DNA from: Chloroflexota bacterium
Lineage (GTDB): Bacteria; Chloroflexota; Anaerolineae; Promineifilales; Promineifilaceae
Assembly (NCBI GenBank): GCA_020353135.1
Contig: CP070688.1
Location: forward strand, 3,132,767 to 3,144,480
Direction of reading: 5' to 3'
Length of the DNA: 11,714 nt
The position numbers were made by a program, and so were the translations under genes. A model generated the notes under the pieces. The model was not told where the DNA came from, ran no database searches, and saw nothing but the letters and a program-made list of their open reading frames with translations. Below, in pieces: positions 1,916-11,714 of the stretch (the first letter of the stretch is position 1; each line of letters opens with the position of its first letter).

Positions 1916-2803
1916 ATGCGTTCTAGGTTATTGCGAGGCTTTTTACTTGTGGTAGTTCTGCTGGTGGTAATCGTCGGTCTGCTGGCCATCCTGGCCGAAC
2001 CGGCCGAACCACAACCTTTCTTCACCGCCGGGCCGGCCCGGCCGTGGGTCATCGCCCATCAGGGTGGCGACGGTTTATGGCCGGGCAATACGATGTTTGC
2101 TTTCGAAAACGCGGCCGAGTTGGGCGTTGACGTGCTGGAAATGGACATGCATAGCACGGCCGACGGCGTCCTGGTCTTGATGCACGACGATACCGTCGAC
2201 CGCACGACCGATGGCAGCGGCCGGATCGACGACATGACCCTGGCCGAACTCAAGGAATTGGATGCCGGTCACGACTGGACACCGGACGATGGTCAGACGT
2301 AACCCTTCCGTGGCCAGGATGTCGCCGTGCCCACCCTGGATGAGGTCTTCACCGCTTTTCCCGACCGGTTATTCAATATTGAGATTAAGCAGGCTGAACC
2401 CTCCATCGCCGATCCCTTCTGCCAGAAGATCCGGGAGCATGGCCTGGTCGATCAGGTGTTGGTCGCCTCTTTCAGCCAGGAAGCTCTGGATGAATTTCGC
2501 GTCATCTGCCCGGAAGTAGCGACTTCAACCGGCGAGATGGACGGTATCAAGCTCTTGGTCCTGAGCAAATTACTGCTCGAAGCCGTCCATAGCCCGCGGG
2601 CCCAGGCGGTCCAGGCGCCGGAGGAGCGCTTCGGCCTACGCGTATTGACGCCCCGAACGGTCAGCGCCTCCCACAATCGGGGAATGGAAATCCACGCCTG
2701 GACCATTGACGAAACGGATGACATGCGGCGGCTATTGGACATGGGTCTAGACGGCCTCATCACCGACCGGCCGGATCGTATGATGGCCCTACTTGATCGA
2801 TAA
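1916..2803 (+). pseudogene. Membrane-anchored glycerophosphodiester phosphodiesterase interrupted by one in-frame TAA
   Basis: The frame encodes a GDPD (GlpQ/UgpQ-type) enzyme that would hydrolyse glycerophosphodiesters to glycerol-3-phosphate and an alcohol outside the membrane. Residues 1-28 form a signal anchor (RSRLLR followed by a hydrophobic run at 9-27). The catalytic core follows: H48, E75-x-D77, H90 in MHDDTVDRTTDG, then E156 in NIEIK, HAWT, and a GLITDRPD end. TAA at 2300-2302 (codon 129) falls between GQT and PFRGQ, where I recall relatives carrying an aromatic residue (T-Y/F-P-F/Y-RGQ). A single base change from TAC or TAT explains it. Both halves are in the same frame with no other lesion and would total 296 codons, a normal length. 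The stop separates H48/E75/D77/H90 from E156, so neither half alone should be active. The usual HRG and PENT motifs read HQG and PGNT. Start ATG has GAGGAA upstream. A sequencing error or a very recent mutation is equally possible. Confidence 0.8.
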
Positions 2804-2890: not shown

Positions 2891-3148
2891 GTGTACAGGA
2901 TTCGCTTTAGTAAGCAGGCGGATAGAGCCATGCGCAGGATGCCCTCAGGAGTTTCTGCCCGCATTCGCGAAAAGCTCATGCAGATCGCAAAGGACCCATA
3001 TGGCAGCCACGCTAACGTAACCAAACTGGAGGGTCGATCCGGTTATCATATGCGAGTTGGCAGTTGGCGAGTGCTGTACGAGACCGAGAATGAACAGCTA
3101 ATCATACTTGTATTGAGAATTGCGACCCGCGGAGAGGTATATAGATGA
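2891..3148 (+). CDS. RelE/ParE-superfamily toxin
   Basis: An 85-residue basic protein with the RelE fold signature: MYRIRFSKQADRAMRRMP at the N-terminus, then a helical DPYGSHANVTKLEG segment, GYHMRVGSWRVLYE, and a terminal ILRIATRGEVYR-like end. RelE-type members cut mRNA at the ribosome. The conserved Arg residues and the terminal Tyr-Arg seen here fit that group, although ParE-like gyrase poisoning cannot be excluded. The start is GTG at 2891. An in-frame TAA at 2879 blocks anything longer, and there is no Shine-Dalgarno sequence. The gene precedes and overlaps the antitoxin by ATGA, the reverse order seen in HigBA-type modules. Its GC content is lower than that of the flanking metabolic genes, suggesting horizontal arrival. 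Confidence 0.88.
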   Translation: MYRIRFSKQADRAMRRMPSGVSARIREKLMQIAKDPYGSHANVTKLEGRSGYHMRVGSWRVLYETENEQLIILVLRIATRGEVYR

Positions 3149-3516
3149 GTATACAGGTGATACAGAAGAACGGGCAGCCGGAATGGGCAATTCTACCTTA
3201 CGATCAGTACTTACAGTTGATAGAGGCGGCCGAAATGCTCCAGGATATTCGCGATTATGATGCCGCACGAAAGGCCTTTGAAGAAGGTGAAGAGCTAGTT
3301 CCAAGCGAGATCACCTTTGCCATTCTAGACGGCGAGAATCCTATCAAAGTATGGCGTGAATACCGTGGTTTGACTCAGCAGCAATTGGCTGACGCGGCCA
3401 GCATCAGTAAATCGTACCTGTCTCAGATCGAGACTGGCAAGCGTATCGGTAAGGCCGAGGTGTTGGCGGCGATTGCCTCTGGTCTGGGCTTGACATTGGA
3501 CGACATTCTCAACTAA
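3145..3516 (+). CDS. Antitoxin: XRE-family helix-turn-helix protein with N-terminal toxin-binding segment
   Basis: This 123-residue protein has two parts. The N-terminal half (1-60) reads like the Phd/YefM-type segment VIQKNGQPEWAILPYDQYL followed by acidic helices (EAAEMLQDIRDY, KAFEEGEEL), suited to wrapping the basic toxin. Residues 66-123 are a Cro/C1-type HTH: IKVWREYRGLTQQQLADAAS, then ISKSYLSQIETGKRIGK and a helical end. The start ATG overlaps the toxin TGA (ATGA) and has GGAGAGG 7 nt upstream, so translation is probably coupled. It neutralises the toxin and very likely represses the operon through the palindromes at 2830-2882. A sampled 60-nt stretch is about 47% GC versus about 68% in the neighbouring deaminase gene. 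Confidence 0.88.
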   Translation: MSIQVIQKNGQPEWAILPYDQYLQLIEAAEMLQDIRDYDAARKAFEEGEELVPSEITFAILDGENPIKVWREYRGLTQQQLADAASISKSYLSQIETGKRIGKAEVLAAIASGLGLTLDDILN

Positions 3517-3539: not shown

Positions 3540-3546
3540 CGCTTTG

Positions 3547-5340
3547 GTGATCAAGCGACAACCACGGCATCAAGTCACTCAATCTTTGGTCGACGTGGCT
3601 ATGGGCCGCCGGGCGGCCGATATGCTCATTCGCGATGGCCAATGGGTAAATGTACACAGCGGCGAAATCATTTCCGGCACCGACGTAGCCATTTGGGGCG
3701 GCCGGATCGCCTACGTTGGTCCTGACGGCGAATACACTGTTGGCGAGGGAACGCAGGTGATAGAGGCCGGCGATCGCTACCTGGTGCCGGGCTTGTGTGA
3801 CGCCCACATGCACGTCGAGAGCGGGCTGGTCACGGTGACCGAATTCGTGCGCGGCGTCGTCCCCCACGGCACGACCAGCATGTTCGTCGATCCCCATGAA
3901 ATAGCCAATGTGCTCGGGCTGGAGGGCGTGCGGCTCATGCATGACGAGTCGGCCGGCCAGCCCATCAACGTCTATGTGCAGATGCCCAGCTGCGTTCCCA
4001 GCGCCCCTGGCCTGGAAACGCCAGGCGCCACAATCGGCCCGGATGAAGTAGCCGAGGCCATGACCTGGCCGGGCATCGTCGGCCTGGGCGAGATGATGAA
4101 TTTCCCCGGCGTCTGCATCAACGACGACCAGCTGCACGCCGAAATGGCCGAGACCATGAAGGCGGGCAAAGTCATTGGCGGCCACTATGCCTCACCCGAT
4201 CTCGGCCTGGCTTTTCACGGTTACGTGGCGGCGGGACCGGCCGACGATCACGAAGGCACGCGGGTCGAGGACGCCGTGGCCCGGGTTCGTCAGGGCATGC
4301 GGACGATGCTGCGTTTAGGTTCGGCCTGGCACGACGTGGTCAGCCAGGTCAAGGCTATTACCGAACTGGGCTTGGACAGTCGTTACTTCATACTGTGTAC
4401 CGACGATAGCCATTCAGGTACCTTGGTCCATGACGGGCATATGAACCGGGTGGTGCGCCACGCCATCGAGCAAGGACTGAAGCCGGTCACGGCCATCCAG
4501 ATGGCCACATTGAACACGGCCGAACACTTTGGACTGGAGAAAGACATCGGCAGCATCACGCCAGGCCGCTACGCCGACATCATCGTCAGCAGCGACTTGC
4601 CAACTTTGCCGGTCGAGGTCGTCATTGCCGCCGGGCAGGTCGTGGCTGAGAACGGCCAGCTCACTATTGACCTGCCGGCCTATCCATATCCGAAACTGGC
4701 GGCCGGCACGGTCCATCTGCCCCGACAATTGACGACGCTAGACTTCGACGTACCGGCCCCCAACCCTGAGCCGCCTACCGTTCGGGTGATCGGCGTGATC
4801 GAAAACCAGGCCCCGACACGGGCCGAAACGCGCGTGCTGCCGATAGATAGGGGCGTGCTACAATTGGACTCGCGCCAGGACGTGGCCCATCTGGCCCTTG
4901 TGGAGCGCCATAAAGGGACAGGCAAGGTGGTCAACGGCTTCGTCTCCGGATTTGGCTTTGATAAACCTTGCGCCATTGCCAGTACAATATCCCATGACAG
5001 CCATCACATGGTGGTGGTAGGCACCAGCAAGGGCAACATGGCCCAGGCGGCCAATCGCCTGGCCGAGATCGGCGGCGGCGTGATCGTCGTGCGGGAAGGG
5101 CAGGAAATCGCCCTCGTGGAGCTGCCGATCGCTGGGCTGATGTCGGACGAGCGAGCCGAGGTCGTCGCCGATAAGGCGGCGCGTATGGTCCAGGCATTTC
5201 ATGAATGCGGCTGCCAACTCAACAACGCCTTTATGCAGTTGAGCCTGCTTTCGCTGGTAGTCATCCCTGAGCTACGCATCTCCGATTTGGGAATCGTCGA
5301 CGTAAACAAGTTCGAAATTGTGCCCGTAACCGTTTCCTGA
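3547..5340 (+). CDS. ade: Adenine deaminase
   Basis: About 597 residues, as expected for the bacterial Ade/AdeC family, a metal-dependent amidohydrolase that converts adenine to hypoxanthine plus ammonia (EC 3.5.4.2) in purine salvage or catabolism. An N-terminal DMLIRDGQWVNVHSGEI segment precedes the barrel. Metal-site motifs are DAHMHVESG (about 85-92), DPHE (about 115-118), GLGEMMNFPGV (about 180-189), HGYVAAGPADDHEGT (about 224-238) and CTDDSHSG (about 284-291). The GRYADIIV return strand follows. The family-specific C-terminal domain contains GFGFDKPCAIASTISHDSHH and VVGTSKGNMAQA. All these motifs are present, so it should be active. GTG at 3547 is chosen by Shine-Dalgarno spacing; TTG 3544 is the alternative. 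It is the first gene of the right-hand catabolic block. A 231-nt gap separates it from the next gene, and no clear terminator is seen in that gap. Confidence 0.95.
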   Translation: MIKRQPRHQVTQSLVDVAMGRRAADMLIRDGQWVNVHSGEIISGTDVAIWGGRIAYVGPDGEYTVGEGTQVIEAGDRYLVPGLCDAHMHVESGLVTVTEFVRGVVPHGTTSMFVDPHEIANVLGLEGVRLMHDESAGQPINVYVQMPSCVPSAPGLETPGATIGPDEVAEAMTWPGIVGLGEMMNFPGVCINDDQLHAEMAETMKAGKVIGGHYASPDLGLAFHGYVAAGPADDHEGTRVEDAVARVRQGMRTMLRLGSAWHDVVSQVKAITELGLDSRYFILCTDDSHSGTLVHDGHMNRVVRHAIEQGLKPVTAIQMATLNTAEHFGLEKDIGSITPGRYADIIVSSDLPTLPVEVVIAAGQVVAENGQLTIDLPAYPYPKLAAGTVHLPRQLTTLDFDVPAPNPEPPTVRVIGVIENQAPTRAETRVLPIDRGVLQLDSRQDVAHLALVERHKGTGKVVNGFVSGFGFDKPCAIASTISHDSHHMVVVGTSKGNMAQAANRLAEIGGGVIVVREGQEIALVELPIAGLMSDERAEVVADKAARMVQAFHECGCQLNNAFMQLSLLSLVVIPELRISDLGIVDVNKFEIVPVTVS

Positions 5341-5492: not shown

Positions 5493-5521
5493 TTGACAAT
5501 GCCAACATGATGTGTCAAAAT
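5493..5521 (+). promoter_or_regulatory. Promoter of the GntR regulator gene
   Basis: A perfect -35 box TTGACA (5493-5498) is followed after 17 nt by CAAAAT (5516-5521, 4/6 match). Transcription would start near 5528. This supports translation starting at ATG 5572 and not at GTG 5512, which would fall inside the promoter. Confidence 0.55.
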
Positions 5522-5552
5522 TTGTCATACAACCATACCACCTGACAAATTT
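5513..5552. promoter_or_regulatory. Candidate GntR operator: inverted TGTCA half-sites
   Basis: AAATTTGTCA (5518-5527) and TGACAAATTT (5543-5552) are exact 10-bp inverted repeats separated by 15 nt, spanning the predicted start of transcription. A further TGTCAA (5513-5518) pairs with the -35 TTGACA (5493-5498) as a second inverted pair with 14 nt between. Four half-sites over a promoter directly before a GntR gene fit autorepression. Confidence 0.5.
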
Positions 5553-5571
5553 AGTTCCCGTCGCACGACCA

Positions 5572-6297
5572 ATGATTAAGCGCAGTCCCTCTTTGACCGG
5601 CCAGGTCAAGGCTCATATCAAGCAGCAAATCCTCGACAACGCCTATGAAGATGATCGCGTGCCGGCCGAGATGGATCTGGCAAACGAACTCGGTGTTAGT
5701 CGAACCACGGTCCGCGATGCACTCAGCCGCTTAGAGAATGAAGGGGTCATCTATCGCAAGCAGGGCGCCGGCACCTTCGTAAACCGGCCGGGGTTGCGTA
5801 TCCGCTCACGATTGGACGAGATCTGGTCATATGAGGCGGTGCTGCAGGCCCATGGCTACGAGCCGTCCACGCGAGTGTTGGATGTGAACCGCCAGACGGC
5901 CGATTCTGGGCTGGCGGCCGACCTAAACCTGGACGCCGGACAACCCGTCCTGCTGATCCGCAAATTGTTCCTGGAGGATGAGCAGCCGGTCATCTTGACC
6001 CGCAACTACATCCCGCTTTCGCTGGTGGGCGAACCGGCGGAAGGGGACACGTTCGTGGTGCCCATATTCGATTATCTGAGTGACGTGGCCGGACAGCACT
6101 TGAGTTACTATCTTTCGGAAATCGTGCCCGTGATGGCCAGCGACGATCTGGCCCAAACGTTGCACGTCTCGTCGCCGACGGCCGTGCTCTCTTTGGAGGA
6201 GGTCGGTTACAACGAGGAAAACGAGCCGATCTTGAAAGCATATTCTTACTTCCGTGACGATCTTTTGCGCCTGGGTCTCATCCGGCGCAAGGTTTAA
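5572..6297 (+). CDS. GntR-family transcriptional regulator, HutC subfamily
   Basis: A 241-residue regulator. Residues 8-72 form the GntR winged helix: LTGQVKAHIKQQILDN, VPAEMDLANELGVSRTTVRD (30-49), then LSRLENEGVIYRKQGAGTFV. From about residue 85 to the end is a UTRA effector domain (PVLLIRKLFLEDEQPVILTR, YIPLSLV, LSLEEVGYNEENEPILKAYSYFRDD), which defines the HutC subfamily. These proteins usually repress neighbouring catabolic genes and are released by a small substrate or intermediate. ATG 5572 is chosen because it gives the normal GntR N-terminus and lies downstream of the promoter; an in-frame GTG at 5512 lies within the promoter. There is no strong Shine-Dalgarno. Its position between adenine deaminase and the transcarbamylase block suggests it controls one or both. 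Confidence 0.9.
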   Translation: MIKRSPSLTGQVKAHIKQQILDNAYEDDRVPAEMDLANELGVSRTTVRDALSRLENEGVIYRKQGAGTFVNRPGLRIRSRLDEIWSYEAVLQAHGYEPSTRVLDVNRQTADSGLAADLNLDAGQPVLLIRKLFLEDEQPVILTRNYIPLSLVGEPAEGDTFVVPIFDYLSDVAGQHLSYYLSEIVPVMASDDLAQTLHVSSPTAVLSLEEVGYNEENEPILKAYSYFRDDLLRLGLIRRKV

Positions 6298-6365: not shown

Positions 6366-7319
6366 ATGAGAAGTTTTGCTGGTCGAGACATTTTGTCTAT
6401 CAAGGATTTTGAACGCCAGGAGTTCTTTCGCGTATTTGAGATCGCCGAAGACCTCGAGCCCATCGCCCGCAATAGGCGCAATACTGATTTGTTGCAGGAA
6501 AAAACCCTGGTAACCGCCTTTTATCAGCCGTCGACCCGTACCCGGCTGGCCCATGAGGCGGCCATGATCCGCCTCGGCGGGCAGGTAACCGGTTTCGCCG
6601 ACGCCAAGATGACCCGCGCAGGCGACTTCTACCAGGAGTCCATCAAGGATACGGTCAAAATGCTGGAATTCTACGGCGATGTGATCGTCATGCGCCACTT
6701 CCAACAAGGCGCGCCTCACGAGGCGGCCAAATGGGCATCGGTGCCGATCATCAACGGCGGTGATGGCTGGGGCGAGCACCCGACCCAGATCTTGACCGAT
6801 TTGTACACCGTCTTGCGGGAAAAAGACCGCATCGACGGCCTGAAGTGGCTGGCAGTTGGCGACATGCGCATGCGCACCATGCACTCGCTGGCTTATGGTC
6901 TGAGCCAATTCGACTGTCCCATCACCTTTGTCTCGCCGCCGGACATGTCGTTGACGGACGAGTTCAAGGCCGATCTAGCCAACTACAGCCTGGACTATCA
7001 GGAAGCTGAACACGTCGAGCAGGCTATCGCCGATGCCGACGTCATCCTGGTCGAGCCGGTGGTGCAGCCTGACTATACCAAGTCGCGCGACGAGCGTACC
7101 GGAGAACTCGACCTGACCCCGGCCAACTACAAGATCACCCGCGAATTGTTGACCAGCAAGGCCAAATCAGACGCAATCCTGCTGCACTCGCTGCCGCGCA
7201 TGGACGAAATCCCGGCCGATGTCGACATCACCCGCTGGTCCCGCTACTGGCAAGAAGCGTTCAACGGCGTGGTAATGCGGATGGCGTTGTTGGCGTTGGT
7301 ACTCGGTGTCACCGAGTAG
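6366..7319 (+). CDS. Aspartate-carbamoyltransferase-like protein with altered substrate loop
   Basis: A 317-residue transcarbamylase-fold protein closest in pattern to the ATCase catalytic chain. Carbamoyl-phosphate and active-site residues preserved are STRTR (56-60), Arg110 in VIVMRH, HPTQ (138-141), the RTMHS motif (170-174) and LPR of HSLPR (274-278; the usual HPLPR has Pro where Ser275 is). The C-terminus, DEIPADVD and RMALLALVLG, is ATCase-like. Two key positions differ from E. coli PyrB. The KGET-type loop reads AGDFYQESIKDT (85-96) without Lys84, and the TRVQ segment reads PVVQ (231-234), putting Val232 at Arg229, which binds the aspartate carboxylate. Aspartate is therefore probably not the acceptor. 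AAGGAG lies 7 nt before the ATG. The next genes are a second transcarbamylase and carbamate kinase, which points to carbamoyl-phosphate production rather than pyrimidine synthesis. The true substrate is unknown. Confidence 0.85.
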   Translation: MRSFAGRDILSIKDFERQEFFRVFEIAEDLEPIARNRRNTDLLQEKTLVTAFYQPSTRTRLAHEAAMIRLGGQVTGFADAKMTRAGDFYQESIKDTVKMLEFYGDVIVMRHFQQGAPHEAAKWASVPIINGGDGWGEHPTQILTDLYTVLREKDRIDGLKWLAVGDMRMRTMHSLAYGLSQFDCPITFVSPPDMSLTDEFKADLANYSLDYQEAEHVEQAIADADVILVEPVVQPDYTKSRDERTGELDLTPANYKITRELLTSKAKSDAILLHSLPRMDEIPADVDITRWSRYWQEAFNGVVMRMALLALVLGVTE

Positions 7320-7357
7320 TGGCTGGTTGCTGGTAATTGGTTGAAGGAGCACTCAAG

Positions 7358-8335
7358 ATGCAAACCTACTTACACGGACGTGACCTAATTAGTGACCTCG
7401 ACTTCTCGAAGGAGGAAGTTGAAACGATACTGGATGTGGCTTGGAACTTGAAGCGCAAGCGGGCCTTGGGCGAACCCCATGCTTATCTGCGTGACAAGGT
7501 GCTGGCAATGCTCTTCTTCTTTTCCAGCACGCGCACCCGCGGCTCGTTTGAGGCGGGCATGGCCCAATTAGGCGGGCATGCGGCTTTTATCGAGAGCCGT
7601 ACGACCCAAATCTCGCACGGCGACACCGAGCGGGAAATGGGCGAGATCTTCGGCCGTTATTTCGACGGCATCGCCATCCGCCACGTAGATTGGAATATCG
7701 GCAACCGCTATCTCAATCTTGTAGCCGAGGCCTCCCGCGTGCCGGTCCTCAATATGCAATGCGAGATCTACCATCCGCATCAATGCCTGGCTGACATCAT
7801 GACCATCATCGAGAAAAAGGGCCGCGACCTGCGCCGCAAGAAGATGGTCGTCTCCTGGGCCTATGCTTCCTCGTACTTGAAGCCGATTTCTGTGCCCCAG
7901 TCGCTCATTCTGCAAATGCCGCGCTTCGGCCTGGACGTCGTCCTGGCCCACCCGCCTGAATTCCAATTGATGCCCGACATCATGGATCAGGCCAGGGAAC
8001 AGGCCCGCAAATTCAAGACCGGATTCGAGGTCGTGGACGACATGGAAGAAGCCTGCAAGGACGCGGATATCATCTATGCCAAATCGTGGGGCCCGCTGCT
8101 CACCACCCATGATCCGGACGAGGGTAAACGAATCCAGGACCAATACACGGACTGGATCGCCGACGAGGCCAAGATGGCCCTGGGCAAGGACGACGTGATC
8201 TACATGCATCCTTTGCCGGCCGACCGTGAGATCGAGGTCAGCAACGCGGTCATCGACGGTCCTCATTCAGTCGTATTTGACGAGGCCGAGAACCGTATGC
8301 ATGCTCAAAAGGCGGTCATGGCCCTGACCATGTAG
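7358..8335 (+). CDS. YgeW-like (knotted-class) carbamoyltransferase
   Basis: A 325-residue transcarbamylase related to OTCase and most like E. coli YgeW. Carbamoyl-phosphate motifs are SSTRTRGSFE (56-65), Arg108 in AIRH, HPHQ (139-142) and HPLPADR (284-290), with the helix ENRMHAQKAVMALTM at the end. Shared with YgeW are MQCEIYHPHQCLADI, and the SWAYASSYLKPISVPQ stretch (166-181) followed by RFGLDVVLAHP. This Pro-rich insertion is where acetyl- and succinylornithine transcarbamylases form their knot. The ornithine-binding DxxxSMG motif is replaced by KSWGP (242-246), so ornithine is unlikely. YgeW itself belongs to anaerobic purine/ureide clusters and its substrate is debated. Start ATG 7358 has AAGGAG 8 nt upstream; an in-frame TTG at 7337 is rejected. 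The 38-nt gap after the first transcarbamylase supports one operon. Confidence 0.87.
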   Translation: MQTYLHGRDLISDLDFSKEEVETILDVAWNLKRKRALGEPHAYLRDKVLAMLFFFSSTRTRGSFEAGMAQLGGHAAFIESRTTQISHGDTEREMGEIFGRYFDGIAIRHVDWNIGNRYLNLVAEASRVPVLNMQCEIYHPHQCLADIMTIIEKKGRDLRRKKMVVSWAYASSYLKPISVPQSLILQMPRFGLDVVLAHPPEFQLMPDIMDQAREQARKFKTGFEVVDDMEEACKDADIIYAKSWGPLLTTHDPDEGKRIQDQYTDWIADEAKMALGKDDVIYMHPLPADREIEVSNAVIDGPHSVVFDEAENRMHAQKAVMALTM

Positions 8336-8348
8336 CAACTTTCGGCGT

Positions 8349-8374
8349 TGGCTGTGCCGGGCCCGGCATAGCCA
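8349..8374. repeat. Intergenic inverted repeat between carbamoyltransferase and carbamate kinase
   Basis: TGGCTGTGCC and GGCATAGCCA can pair over 10 bp (one G-T wobble) around GGGCCC. The hairpin lies just after the upstream stop codon and ends about 10 nt before the Shine-Dalgarno of the carbamate kinase gene. No T-run follows, so a processing or stability element is more likely than a terminator. Confidence 0.5.
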
Positions 8375-8393
8375 CGTCTTGATGGAGAGTGTC

Positions 8394-9350
8394 ATGATGT
8401 CCGATAAGAAGAAAGTGGCCGTAGTCGCCATTGGTGGCAACTCGCTGATAATCGACAAGGCCCACTCCACGGTGCCTGATCAATATGAGGCGGCCGGAGA
8501 AACAGCCCGGCACATCGCGGTAATGATCAAAGACGGCTGGGATGTGGCCATTTCCCACGGCAATGGCCCCCAGGTCGGCTTCATTTTGCGCCGTTCCGAG
8601 CTGGCATCTCATGAGTTGCACGAGGTGCCTTTGGATGTCTGCGGCGCCGATACGCAAGGGGCCATCGGCTATGCGCTGCAGCAAAATCTCTACAATCATT
8701 TTCGCGAAATGGATATTGACAAATCGGTGACCACCGTCGTCACCCAGGTGGAAGTGGCCGCCAACGATCCGGCCTTCGAAAGTCCCTCCAAGCCCATCGG
8801 CTCCTTCATGGATGAACCGACGGCCGTGCGCCGGCGCGATGTCGACGGCTGGGATGTGGTCGACGACGCCGGCCGCGGCTGGCGGCGCGTCGTCGCGTCG
8901 CCTTTGCCTGTACGCATCGTCGAGGAGCCGGCCGTACGCCAATTGCTGGACGCTGGCATGGTCGTCATCACCGTTGGCGGCGGCGGCATCCCAGTGGTGT
9001 CCGACGAAAACGGCGATCTCAAAGGCGTAGCGGCCGTCATCGACAAGGATTTCGCTTCTGGATTGTTGGCCGCCAACATCGGCGCCGAACTGTTCGTCAT
9101 CAGCACTGCGGTCGAGAAGTGCGCCCTCAATTTCGGCCGGCCGGAGCAGTCATGGATCGACCATATGACGGTGGCCCAGGCCAAGGTGTACCTGGCCGAG
9201 GGCACGCACTTCGCCAAGGGCAGCATGGCGCCCAAGATTCAAGCGGCCATCAACTTCGTGGAGGCCAGTGGCGGCGAAGTCATCATAACTGACCCGCCCA
9301 ACATCGCCCGGGCCCTGGCCGGCGAAACCGGCACCCGCATCAGCGCCTGA
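8394..9350 (+). CDS. arcC: Carbamate kinase
   Basis: 318 residues, the normal length for the family, which transfers phosphate between carbamoyl phosphate and ADP to give ATP plus carbamate (EC 2.7.2.2), the energy-yielding step of arginine, agmatine and purine/allantoin fermentations. Diagnostic stretches are VVAIGGNSLI at the N-terminus, SHGNGPQVG, DVCGADTQGAIGYALQQ, the VVTQVEV strand, VRIVEEPAVRQLLDAGMVVI, GGGGIPVV, AVIDKDFASGLLA and FAKGSMAPKIQAA. All core residues appear present. ATG 8394 or the adjacent ATG 8397 is the start, with GGAG at 8384-8387; upstream TTG/ATG codons at 8379/8382 overlap the Shine-Dalgarno. The absence of arginine deiminase in the window, and two unusual transcarbamylases just upstream, suggest its carbamoyl phosphate comes from a ureido compound other than citrulline. 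Confidence 0.95.
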   Translation: MMSDKKKVAVVAIGGNSLIIDKAHSTVPDQYEAAGETARHIAVMIKDGWDVAISHGNGPQVGFILRRSELASHELHEVPLDVCGADTQGAIGYALQQNLYNHFREMDIDKSVTTVVTQVEVAANDPAFESPSKPIGSFMDEPTAVRRRDVDGWDVVDDAGRGWRRVVASPLPVRIVEEPAVRQLLDAGMVVITVGGGGIPVVSDENGDLKGVAAVIDKDFASGLLAANIGAELFVISTAVEKCALNFGRPEQSWIDHMTVAQAKVYLAEGTHFAKGSMAPKIQAAINFVEASGGEVIITDPPNIARALAGETGTRISA

Positions 9351-9368
9351 GGGCAAGGCGGATAAGGT

Positions 9369-10625
9369 ATGAAGCACATTCTACACTTGAAATGCCTCAT
9401 CTGCGGCGAGGAATATGCCCCGAATGAGGTCGAATATGTATGCCCGAACCACGGCAATGATGGCATCCTGGACGTACGCTACGATTACGAGTTCATTGGC
9501 CGCCACTTCAGCCGCGGGACGTTGGCACAAAGCCGGGACTACAGTATCTGGCGCTACAAGCCCCTGCTGCCCGTGCGGCCCGATGTGGCCGTTCCTCCCC
9601 TGCGGGTAGGCTGGACGCCGCTTTATTCGGCGCCACGCCTGGCGGCCGACGTTGGCCTAGACCAGCTGTGGATCAAGGACGATGGTCGGCAACCAACGGC
9701 CTCGTACAAGGATCGGGCCAGCGCCGTGGCAGTGGTCAAAGCGCGCGAACGAGGCGCTGAGATCGTGACTACCGCCAGCACCGGCAACGCCGCCGCCGCC
9801 TTGAGCGGCTTGTGCGCCAGCGTCGGCCAGAAGAACGTCATCTTCGTGCCCGAATTGGCGCCCCAGGCCAAGATCGCCCAGCTCCTGGTCTTCGGCTCGA
9901 CGGTTTTGCTGGTCAAAGGCACCTACGACGACGCCTTTGAATTGTGCCTGGCTGCGGCGGCCGAGTATGGCTGGTACAACCGCAACACAGCCTACAACCC
10001 ATACATGACCGAAGGCAAAAAGACGGCCAGCTTCGAGATCGGCGAACAGCTGGATTGGTCTGCGCCGGACGTCATCGTCGTCAGCGTCGGCGACGGCAAC
10101 ATCATCGGCGGCTTACACAAAGGTTTGAAGGATCTGCTGGCTCTGGGCTGGATCGATCACATGCCCCGCCTCATCGGCGTCCAGGCTGAAGGCAGCAACT
10201 ATATGTACCAGGCCTGGAAGAGCGGCGAAGATGTTCTTACCAAGCCGCCCATCCAGGCCGACACCCTGGCCGACAGCATCAGCGCCGGCCTGCCGCGCGA
10301 CCGGATCAAGGCCCTGGCCGCGGTGACTGAGACAAGCGGCGCTTACGTGAGCGTGAGCGATGAAGAGATTCTGGCCGCCATTCCAACCATGGCCCGCGGC
10401 AGCGGCGTCTTCGGCGAACCGGCTGGGGCGGCCGCTTACGCTGGATTGGTCAAAGCGAAGGACGAAGGACTGGTGTCGGCCGGCGAGCGGATCGTCGTCC
10501 TCAACACCGGCAACGGTCTCAAAGACGTGGCCGGGGCCATGAAGTCGGTCGAATTGGCCGGCACGGCCGCCTATCGCGTCGCGCCCGATATCGACGATTT
10601 GCGGCGGGTGATGAGGGAACTGTAA
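9369..10625 (+). CDS. Threonine-synthase-like PLP-dependent enzyme with zinc-ribbon N-terminus
   Basis: 418 residues of the fold-type-II PLP family. The N-terminus has a zinc-ribbon-like CLIC (9-12) with Cys25 and His28, common in one ThrC branch. Lys114 in TASYKDRAS is the expected Schiff-base lysine. TASTGNAAAALSG (135-147) binds near the cofactor, GDGNIIGG (241-248) takes the place of the glycine-rich phosphate-binding loop, and GEPAGAA and LNTGNGLKD (379-387) are ThrC-type signatures. Threonine synthase makes threonine from O-phosphohomoserine, but no thr gene is nearby. It sits 18 nt after carbamate kinase in a catabolic operon. A paralogue with lyase activity, for example on 2,3-diaminopropionate or serine/threonine, is therefore an open alternative. 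ATG 9369 is preceded by AAGG-type purine runs. Confidence 0.85.
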   Translation: MKHILHLKCLICGEEYAPNEVEYVCPNHGNDGILDVRYDYEFIGRHFSRGTLAQSRDYSIWRYKPLLPVRPDVAVPPLRVGWTPLYSAPRLAADVGLDQLWIKDDGRQPTASYKDRASAVAVVKARERGAEIVTTASTGNAAAALSGLCASVGQKNVIFVPELAPQAKIAQLLVFGSTVLLVKGTYDDAFELCLAAAAEYGWYNRNTAYNPYMTEGKKTASFEIGEQLDWSAPDVIVVSVGDGNIIGGLHKGLKDLLALGWIDHMPRLIGVQAEGSNYMYQAWKSGEDVLTKPPIQADTLADSISAGLPRDRIKALAAVTETSGAYVSVSDEEILAAIPTMARGSGVFGEPAGAAAYAGLVKAKDEGLVSAGERIVVLNTGNGLKDVAGAMKSVELAGTAAYRVAPDIDDLRRVMREL

Positions 10626-10630
10626 GCATT

Positions 10631-10689
10631 AGAAGCCAGGCTTATTGCAGACCATCAACAGGTCTGGCAAGGTCAAAAGCCTGGCTTCT
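10631..10689. repeat. Nested hairpin between the two PLP-enzyme genes
   Basis: AGAAGCCAGGCTT (10631-10643) and AAGCCTGGCTTCT (10677-10689) form a perfect 13-bp stem. Inside it, CAGACC (10648-10653) pairs with GGTCTG (10661-10666) around a 7-nt loop. The element begins 5 nt after the upstream stop codon. No U-run follows (next bases are TCGCGAGCG), so a standard intrinsic terminator is not supported. A stabilising or processing structure, or a regulator of the downstream gene, is more plausible. Confidence 0.6.
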
Positions 10690-10733
10690 TCGCGAGCGAA
10701 ATCTCGTTCACATTAATCCAAGAGGACAGACAC

Positions 10734-11714
10734 ATGATTGACTTAACCATAAACGAAGAAGGCCTGGAACGAGCCGTACAGCAGGCCCGCGAGCAGAATA
10801 TCATCATCCCCACCTTCAAACAGATGGAAGACCCAAGACTGATTCCGGACAAGATAAAGACCAGGCTCGACGACGTCGGTTTGTGGGATCTCAATCCCCT
10901 CAATCTCTTCCGCATCACCTGGCACAACGAGCCGCTGGCCTCCGGCGGCGAGTTCGGCGGGGTGAACTACCTGGAGTTTCCGCCAGAAATAACCGGCGTT
11001 GAAGCCCGAATCATCACCCTGATCGGCAAGTGGTTCCCAACCGGCGCGCACAAGGTCGGCGCCGCCTTTGGCTGCCTAGCGCCTCGCCTGGTCACAGGCC
11101 AATTCGACCCAACCTCACAGAAGGCCGCCTGGCCGTCCACCGGCAATTACTGCCGCGGCGGCGCCTACGACTCCCACCTGCTGGCCTGCGATTCAATCGC
11201 CATCTTGCCCGAGGGCATGAGCAAGGAACGTTTCGACTGGCTGGCCACCGTGGCCGGCGAGGTGATCAAGACGCCCGGATCCGAGAGCAACGTCAAGGAG
11301 ATCTTTGACAAATGCTGGGAACTGCGCGCTTCGGGCGAGGACATCGTCATCTTCAACCAATTCGACGAGTTCGGCAACTACTTGTGGCACTACAACGTGA
11401 CCGGCCGGGCCATGGAAGAGGTACTGAACGAGATCATGGGGCCCGACGACCGCTACCGGGGCGTCACCCTGACCACCGGATCGGCCGGCACCATCGCCTG
11501 CGGCGACTATCTGAAGCAGGTCTTCCCCACCAGCAAGATCGTGGCCAGCGAAGCGCTGCAGTGCCCGACGCTGCTCAACAACGGCTTCGGCTCACACCGC
11601 ATCGAGGGTATCGGCGACAAGCACGTGCCCTGGATCCACAATGTGAAAAACACCGATATGGTCGTGGCCATCGACGACGAGGCGACGACCAAGGTCAAGC
11701 GTTTGTTCAATACT
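10734..11714 (+). CDS. PLP-dependent fold-type-II enzyme (cysteine-synthase/threonine-synthase superfamily), 3' end missing
   Basis: The frame is open from ATG 10734 to the window end, giving the first 327 residues without a stop. AGAGGA lies about 7 nt before the start. Lys107 in FPTGAHKVGAA is the likely PLP lysine. WPSTGNYCRGGAYDS (133-147) is the asparagine loop, and TTGSAGT is the glycine-rich phosphate-binding loop. This pattern fits proteins I know as PLP-dependent protein subunit beta, usually about 430-460 residues, so perhaps 100-130 are missing. Such proteins are annotated loosely as cysteine synthase/cystathionine beta-synthase relatives, and the reaction is not established. Its location at the end of a transcarbamylase-carbamate kinase operon suggests amino-acid elimination or deamination, like diaminopropionate ammonia-lyase, but the sequence does not prove it. 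Confidence 0.85.
   Translation, partial: MIDLTINEEGLERAVQQAREQNIIIPTFKQMEDPRLIPDKIKTRLDDVGLWDLNPLNLFRITWHNEPLASGGEFGGVNYLEFPPEITGVEARIITLIGKWFPTGAHKVGAAFGCLAPRLVTGQFDPTSQKAAWPSTGNYCRGGAYDSHLLACDSIAILPEGMSKERFDWLATVAGEVIKTPGSESNVKEIFDKCWELRASGEDIVIFNQFDEFGNYLWHYNVTGRAMEEVLNEIMGPDDRYRGVTLTTGSAGTIACGDYLKQVFPTSKIVASEALQCPTLLNNGFGSHRIEGIGDKHVPWIHNVKNTDMVVAIDDEATTKVKRLFNT

Follow-up and report, generated by a model that had tools for sequence, protein, structure and literature searches.

A Chloroflexota operon with two transcarbamylases as a proposed phosphorolytic end stage of the reductive uric acid pathway

2,3-Diureidopropionate is an intermediate of a route for reductive uric acid breakdown that was published in 2025 (PMC12507026; PMC12990295). 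The E. coli cluster comprises XdhD, YgfK, SsnA, HyuA, YgeW, YgeY, YgeX, and YqeA; in vitro, HyuA and YgeW with phosphate give albizziin, and YgeY and YgeX then yield pyruvate (PMC12507026). E. coli YgeY hydrolyzes the second ureido group, such that its energy is not saved. There is dispute over the ureido group that YgeW attacks first (PMC12990295), and SsnA clusters of Chloroflexota carry a putative F420-dependent enzyme (PMC12507026). Pseudo-aspartate transcarbamylases (pseudo-ATCases) and one allantoate carbamoyltransferase are already known: the pseudo-ATCase Rxyl_2847 was shown to phosphorolyze allantoate, and a pseudo-ATCase gene of Nocardioides sp. JS614 is pictured next to a ygeW homolog, with no function assigned (PMC4016543). 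Here, we describe an 11,714-nucleotide stretch of a Chloroflexota genome (contig CP070688.1; hereafter, the window) that encodes two transcarbamylases (TC1 and TC2), a carbamate kinase, and two pyridoxal phosphate (PLP) enzymes (PLP1 and PLP2). We propose, with a probability of about 0.6, that in an Anaerolineae-type Chloroflexota bacterium this operon encodes the lower half of that pathway, in which TC1 would substitute for YgeY and two ATP would be obtained.

The five genes follow each other on the forward strand. TC1 (6366..7319) is an ATCase paralog ("pseudo-ATCase") and the proposed ureide carbamoyltransferase alternative to YgeY, and TC2 (7337..8335, with a likely start at the ATG near 7358, based on homologs; PF02729/PF00185) is a knotted YgeW-like carbamoyltransferase. 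These are followed by carbamate kinase (8379..9350), for the production of ATP from carbamoyl phosphate and ADP, which scores 375.4 bits against NF009007 (cut-off 266) and 348.6 bits against TIGR00746, just under the cut-off of 358.25; PLP1 (9369..10625), a threonine-synthase-like fold-type-II enzyme (NF006050; 312.5 bits, cut-off 303); and PLP2 (10734..11714, cut by the window end), a cysteine-synthase-like fold-type-II enzyme (PF00291; 42.9 bits, cut-off 35). Both PLP enzymes are candidate diaminopropionate lyases. Upstream on the same strand are an adenine deaminase (3544..5340; TIGR01178, 494 bits, cut-off 472.5), which would feed purines in by converting adenine to hypoxanthine, and a GntR/UTRA transcriptional regulator (5512..6297; PF07702, PF00392), probably the local regulator. 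The intergenic gaps from TC1 through TC2, carbamate kinase, and PLP1 to PLP2 are 17, 43, 18, and 108 nucleotides, and TC1 begins 68 nucleotides after the end of the GntR gene; this spacing suggests a single operon from the regulator onward. The strand and positions of all seven genes given in the initial annotation were confirmed, and its HutC label for the regulator was not: HutC is merely the nearest model (111.8 bits vs a cut-off of 220), and the protein is under the cut-off of every NCBIfam model listed (25 of 36). No arginine deiminase is present among the annotated window genes; the relatives' genomes were not searched for this enzyme.

Related loci carry the same cluster, and almost all of them are titled Chloroflexota or Anaerolineae. 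A scan of genome contigs for TC2 relatives gave 118 stretches, of which the best 80 were kept; these TC2 relatives are 79–93% identical, and the record titles of their loci name Chloroflexota or groups within it, except for one Spirochaetales. Together with the window they constitute 81 sources, in which contig ends lower the gene-family counts; gene content beyond the window edges is known from the relatives' genomes, not from the window's own genome. Gene families were named from typed representatives, and the ABC transporter by reading sequences. TC2 was found in 81 sources, carbamate kinase in 73, TC1 in 66, GntR in 61, adenine deaminase in 37, PLP1 in 36, an ABC-transporter BMP-type lipoprotein in 35, PLP2 in 32, 8-oxoguanine deaminase in 31, YgeY in 15, FolD in 13, and HyuA in 7. 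The usual order is 8-oxoguanine deaminase, adenine deaminase, GntR, (YgeY), TC1, TC2, carbamate kinase, (ABC transporter), PLP1, (glycosyltransferase), PLP2, a short protein, and HyuA, with some loci lacking some of these genes. For a class-wide sample of 396 genomes, matches were accepted at E ≤ 1e-75 (TC1), ≤ 1e-110 (TC2), ≤ 1e-90 (YgeY), and ≤ 1e-120 (SsnA); TC1 and TC2 are both present in 91 of these genomes, TC1 alone in 4, TC2 alone in 159, and neither in 142. Given this co-occurrence, and the presence of TC1 in 66 and TC2 in all 81 sources, the gene arrangement is not due to chance. SsnA was considered as the in-cluster amidohydrolase and rejected, the typed representative being an 8-oxoguanine deaminase (669.7 bits, cut-off 532). 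A DAO-family flavin adenine dinucleotide oxidoreductase lies directly 3' of the 8-oxoguanine deaminase in L004, L027, and L077 (typed in L077, read in the others), and a protein of ~190 amino acids (L077, 17816-18391), for which neither Pfam nor NCBIfam gave a match at the applied thresholds, occurs in 11 of the 81 sources, mostly between PLP2 and HyuA.

The initial annotation read the operon as ureide-fermenting and guessed 2,3-diureidopropionate as a possible substrate. Both ideas gained support: the guessed compound matches the published pathway intermediate, the relatives' clusters are linked to genes of that pathway, and TC1 shares its slot with YgeY, which takes off the remaining ureido group. 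The neighbors of TC2 in relatives that are not in the window include SsnA, HyuA, and YgeY. In locus L068 (genome G014, titled Chloroflexota), xanthine-dehydrogenase-type genes, YgeY, TC1, TC2, carbamate kinase, PLP1, PLP2, and a YgfK homolog are consecutive, with YgeY through the YgfK homolog all on one strand; the latter (39% identity over 1053 amino acids) directly follows PLP2 and is the sole YgfK match in the 81 sources. In other genomes, SsnA led to the upstream module: a single contig of G016 carries carbamate kinase, GntR, TC1, TC2, PLP1, PLP2, the ABC transporter, SsnA, and YgfM-like and XdhD-like genes, and a single contig of G048 carries TC1, TC2, carbamate kinase, PLP1, PLP2, HyuA, SsnA, F420 genes, and YgfM-like and XdhD-like genes. 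TC1, TC2, SsnA, YgfK (1174 bits, cut-off 835), and PLP2 share a 58-kb contig of G019 (L121); YgfK homologs were thus seen in L068 and G019, and the genomes at large were not searched for them. Beside SsnA in G001 are genes for an F420 reductase, CofE, CofD, and CofC, each scoring above the cut-off of the corresponding model, together with a luciferase-family protein under the cut-offs among the matches listed, in agreement with the remark on Chloroflexota SsnA clusters in PMC12507026. The HyuA representative scores 524.5 bits against TIGR02033 (cut-off 393.25), and the count of its family is limited by contig ends. In finer checks on 50 of the relatives' genomes, SsnA is over its cut-off in 41; in the class-wide sample it is present in 309 of 396 genomes and in 227 of the 250 that bear TC2 (TC2 only, 23; SsnA only, 82; neither, 64; p = 3e-15).

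YgeY is absent from the window, and the slot before TC2 is shared between YgeY and TC1. At 80 loci, one in each of 80 genomes for which the DNA before TC2 was read, this slot holds TC1 only in 31, YgeY only in 31, both in 11, YgeY with a broken TC1 in one, and neither in six. Among the 43 loci with TC1 by the class-wide search described above, it is alone in 31, preceded by YgeY in 11, and in one the slot has neither; the 37 loci without TC1 have YgeY alone (31), YgeY with TC1 fragments (1), or neither (5, two of which have <1.5 kb of sequence). In the 50-genome check, TC1 is intact in 43, is a fragment with stops in G044, has two stops in G005, and has no match (at E ≤ 1e-60) in five; YgeY (TIGR03526) is over the cut-off in 18 of the 50, namely in all seven genomes without intact TC1 vs 11 of the 43 with it (Fisher p = 3e-4). 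In the class-wide sample, TC1 is present in 95, TC2 in 250, and YgeY in 297 genomes; the 250 TC2-bearing genomes comprise 56 with TC1 and YgeY, 35 with TC1 only, 151 with YgeY only, and 8 with neither, a tendency toward exclusion (odds ratio 0.085, p = 4e-11) that is also seen when YgeY is called at E ≤ 1e-130 (21, 70, 146, and 13; odds ratio 0.027). The state of TC1 changes 16 times across a TC2 tree of 125 rows. As a separate observation, a threonine-dehydratase-like PLP gene lies just 5' of TC2 in L138, L139, L141, L155, and L209 (two of the five typed), and in L138 and L139 neither TC1 nor YgeY precedes TC2.

Residue comparison of 64 TC1 sequences with 13 canonical PyrB from the same genomes, the latter picked by the RXQ motif, revealed that the carbamoyl-phosphate motifs STRT and HPTQ are retained in 64/64 TC1, as is the arginine of GRTVHS (R167 equivalent), and that the aspartate site is replaced. 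D87 takes the place of the 80s-loop lysine (K84 equivalent) and P231 that of the RXQ arginine in all 64, none of which has TR[VI]Q; S275 is likewise invariant, with HSLP in 60/64 and HSFP in 4/64 in place of HPLP (canonical HP[LG]P). We take K84, R167, and R229 to be the corresponding ATCase residue numbers. In the numbering of PMC4016543, the RXQ motif is R230-Q232 of E. coli. TC1 is thus very likely not a normal ATCase, judged by its residues; as a guess, its acidic residues D87 and E230 could face an amino group of the substrate. The family is 72-91% identical to the window TC1 (24 sequences), and among the best 120 TC1 relatives listed in each of two protein searches every source-given name is aspartate carbamoyltransferase.

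The initial annotation called TC2 YgeW-like, which stands, although it is not YgeW proper: it scores 181.2 bits against the YgeW model TIGR03316, for which the curated cut-off is 500. Eight TC2 relatives are 34-38% identical to E. coli YgeW, and by alignment the family has in common with it the KPxSVPQ and SWxP segments (knotted type), but not the long C-terminal portion. The same genomes encode other carbamoyltransferases that are 36-45% identical to TC2 (L084, L096, L104, L110, and L113); on contig C29 of G014, the neighbors of one of these include an M20 hydrolase and SsnA-like amidohydrolases that score below the cut-off, perhaps a second ureide cluster.

For the terminal PLP step, YgeX was rejected as the usual enzyme: TIGR01747 matches at E ≤ 1e-15 were found in just 4 of 50 genomes, none at the PLP1/PLP2 place, and no YgeX match at E ≤ 1e-20 was found in the 81 sources. 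By its distribution, PLP2 is a better candidate lyase than PLP1: 48 of 50 genomes encode a relative, although in one or more of them as fragments only. Full-length PLP2 relatives have ~487 amino acids, and the predicted fold of one is nearest to cystathionine beta-synthase and cysteine synthase; enzymes of this type work through aminoacrylate. An OrtB-type thiolase was considered for PLP2 and set aside; no such model is among the NCBIfam matches listed. At least two thrC-family matches are present in 20 of 20 genomes searched, and PLP1 therefore need not be the housekeeping threonine synthase, although some matches may be other enzymes. The gap between PLP1 and PLP2 contains an inverted repeat with 13-base arms (10631-10643 and 10677-10689), a possible hairpin.

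From gene content and linkage, the loss of the aspartate site in TC1, and the YgeY/TC1 slot pattern, with the allantoate phosphorolysis by Rxyl_2847 as a precedent, we infer the following enzyme activities, order of the two cleavages, ATP yield, and PLP step. Upstream enzymes, the genes for which are linked in relatives, would convert urate via yanthine and ureidomethyl-hydantoin to 2,3-diureidopropionate; TC2 would phosphorolyze one ureido group, and TC1 the other, performing the function of YgeY without hydrolysis. The two carbamoyl phosphates would yield two ATP per urate via carbamate kinase, and PLP2, PLP1, or both would split the product, 2,3-diaminopropionate, into pyruvate and ammonia. 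The equilibrium of carbamoyltransferases favors carbamoylation (PMC4016543), and phosphorolysis would therefore need the pull of carbamate kinase and the lyase. The fuller proposal, in which a fully phosphorolytic end stage with two transcarbamylases doubles the ATP relative to E. coli and employs a non-YgeX lyase, a whole family now labeled "ATCase" consists of ureide carbamoyltransferases, and lineages have switched repeatedly between YgeY and TC1, appears to us about evenly balanced between true and false.

Several results on linkage, on the slot, and on pyrimidine genes weigh against the proposed phosphorolytic role of TC1. Regarding linkage, the SsnA, HyuA, and YgfK genes are outside the window itself, and, SsnA being widespread in the class, its association with TC1 across the 396 genomes is weak (odds ratio 2.1, p = 0.03). 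Alternatively, TC1 could be an allantoate (ureidoglycine) carbamoyltransferase like Rxyl_2847, in which case the operon would belong to a route through allantoate and TC2 would use another ureide of that route. In favor of this, the proven pseudo-ATCase Rxyl_2847 has a carbamate kinase and purine genes as neighbors (PMC4016543), and a relative's hydantoinase also matches allantoinase models, under the cut-off. We consider this route unlikely, since the linked upstream genes are SsnA, XdhD-like, and F420 or YgfK genes (uricase was not searched for), the slot of TC1 is common with YgeY, and TC1 has HSLP or HSFP where the Rxyl_2847 group has HPLA (PMC4016543, Table 1).

Concerning the slot, a YgeY-family gene is present in 56 of the 91 genomes with TC1 and TC2 (21 of 91 at E ≤ 1e-130), and intact YgeY and TC1 are side by side in 11 of 43 TC1-bearing loci, so the two are not strictly exclusive; neither gene was detected in 8 of the 250 TC2-bearing genomes. 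A tree-aware paired test on 125 rows, in which YgeY was called at E ≤ 1e-120 or over the cut-off in the 50-genome check and a 349.7-bit match of G029 was excluded, gave 4.8 pairs in the expected direction, 1.0 in the opposite, and 5.2 equal (median p = 0.22); for 50 rows, the values were 2.5, 0, and 1.5 (median p = 0.25). The direction is the same but not significant, and kinship may explain part of the TC1/YgeY pattern. The side-by-side loci would also fit a TC1 that shares its target group with TC2, or that joins TC2 in a mixed or regulatory complex, with YgeY or another hydrolase always taking the second ureido group. This appears improbable, because 35 of the 91 genomes with both transcarbamylases have no YgeY match at E ≤ 1e-90, and because, in the 50 genomes, a broken or missing TC1 is found only where YgeY is present.

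It is also conceivable that TC1 is a working ATCase that stands in the operon by happenstance. It passes the cut-off of TIGR00670 (248.5 vs 236.95), with other ATCase models under their cut-offs, and its predicted fold is ATCase-like (pLDDT 83; TM-score 0.86 to 1ml4). In 20 genomes examined, a canonical PyrB separate from TC1 was found in 13, including 11 of the 15 with intact TC1; in the remaining four of these 15, no PyrB-like gene besides TC1 was found, and three of the four have PyrE: G001, a single 4.5-Mb chromosome in which TC1 is the only PyrB-like gene, and the drafts G009 and G018. Due to these three genomes, an ordinary ATCase, which the initial annotation had named among the outcomes that would undo its proposal, is weakened as a reading, not closed. 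It is nevertheless very unlikely, given the replacement of the K84 and RXQ-arginine equivalents in every TC1, the coexisting RXQ PyrB in those 11 genomes, and the occurrence of TC1 in G015, where neither PyrB nor PyrE was matched. In a further reading, the operon would ferment citrulline, agmatine, or a different guanidino compound, and TC2 would be a catabolic enzyme of the ornithine type; arginine fermentation was likewise rated low. This reading would accord with carbamate kinase plus a transcarbamylase as the core of such pathways and with TC2 scoring nearest to ornithine and acetylornithine models (all under cut-off), but is highly implausible, as the SMG motif of ornithine enzymes is missing from the TC2 family, SMG-bearing ornithine carbamoyltransferase genes are located elsewhere in 17 of 20 genomes, and the neighbors of the cluster are purine genes.

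Elsewhere in the window, a glycerophosphodiester phosphodiesterase is in two pieces in different frames (1916-2302 and 2327-2803, forward strand), indicating a frameshift or sequence error, and a ParE-like protein (2891-3148) overlaps a helix-turn-helix protein (3145-3516) on the same strand, a probable type II toxin-antitoxin pair. An Rfam scan of the window found no RNA family at gathering score.

The proposed phosphorolytic end stage, if correct, would account for the ATP that these Chloroflexota gain from purines and would correct the "aspartate carbamoyltransferase" label of the conserved TC1 family. PMC12990295 lists two questions as open: the order in which the ureido groups are cleaved, and whether the pathway of the gut is ancient or arose as an adaptation to that habitat. 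The presence of SsnA in 309 of 396 genomes of the class bears on the latter, and some of the relatives' record titles suggest groundwater, water-column, or deep-sea samples; for the former, TC1 would be a direct handle if it is specific for one of the two monoureido acids.

The TC1 family resembles the described pseudo-ATCases in having STRT and HPTQ without RXQ and in its purine-gene neighborhood, and it fits their H[ST]LP (group 2) or HSLP (group 3) signature combined with loss of RXQ (HSLP in 60/64, RXQ in none). It differs in having HS[LF]P with no clear GX[SC] motif, and in being very conserved; at the fourth pseudo-ATCase motif (GX[SC] in group 2, VXP in group 3), TC1 reads VEPVVQP, so that VXP is present, outside the aligned columns (PMC4016543). 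As in Nocardioides sp. JS614, where xdh genes and hyuA are also found, TC1 is paired with a YgeW homolog; a link of the Nocardioides gene to 2,3-diureidopropionate or YgeY is not drawn in the available portion of PMC4016543. Likewise, a literature search confined to open-license papers, some of them available in part, found no proposal of a second transcarbamylase in the reductive uric acid pathway.

Like the E. coli cluster, the Chloroflexota cluster has a YgeW-like enzyme, carbamate kinase, and terminal fold-type-II PLP enzymes, and in relatives also SsnA, HyuA, YgeY, XdhD-like, and sometimes YgfK genes. Unlike the former, it contains an additional transcarbamylase, TC1, which occupies the YgeY slot or lies next to it; it carries PLP1 and PLP2, and the YgeX family is present in just 4 of 50 genomes; F420 genes stand beside SsnA in several genomes; and a GntR/UTRA regulator, an adenine deaminase, and an 8-oxoguanine deaminase belong to the cluster. 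A ureido-removing enzyme of this pathway has likewise proved swappable for an unrelated one in the Clostridioides difficile variant (UacX, UacY); there the YgeW step turned hydrolytic (PMC12507026), whereas in the Chloroflexota it is the YgeY step that would turn phosphorolytic.

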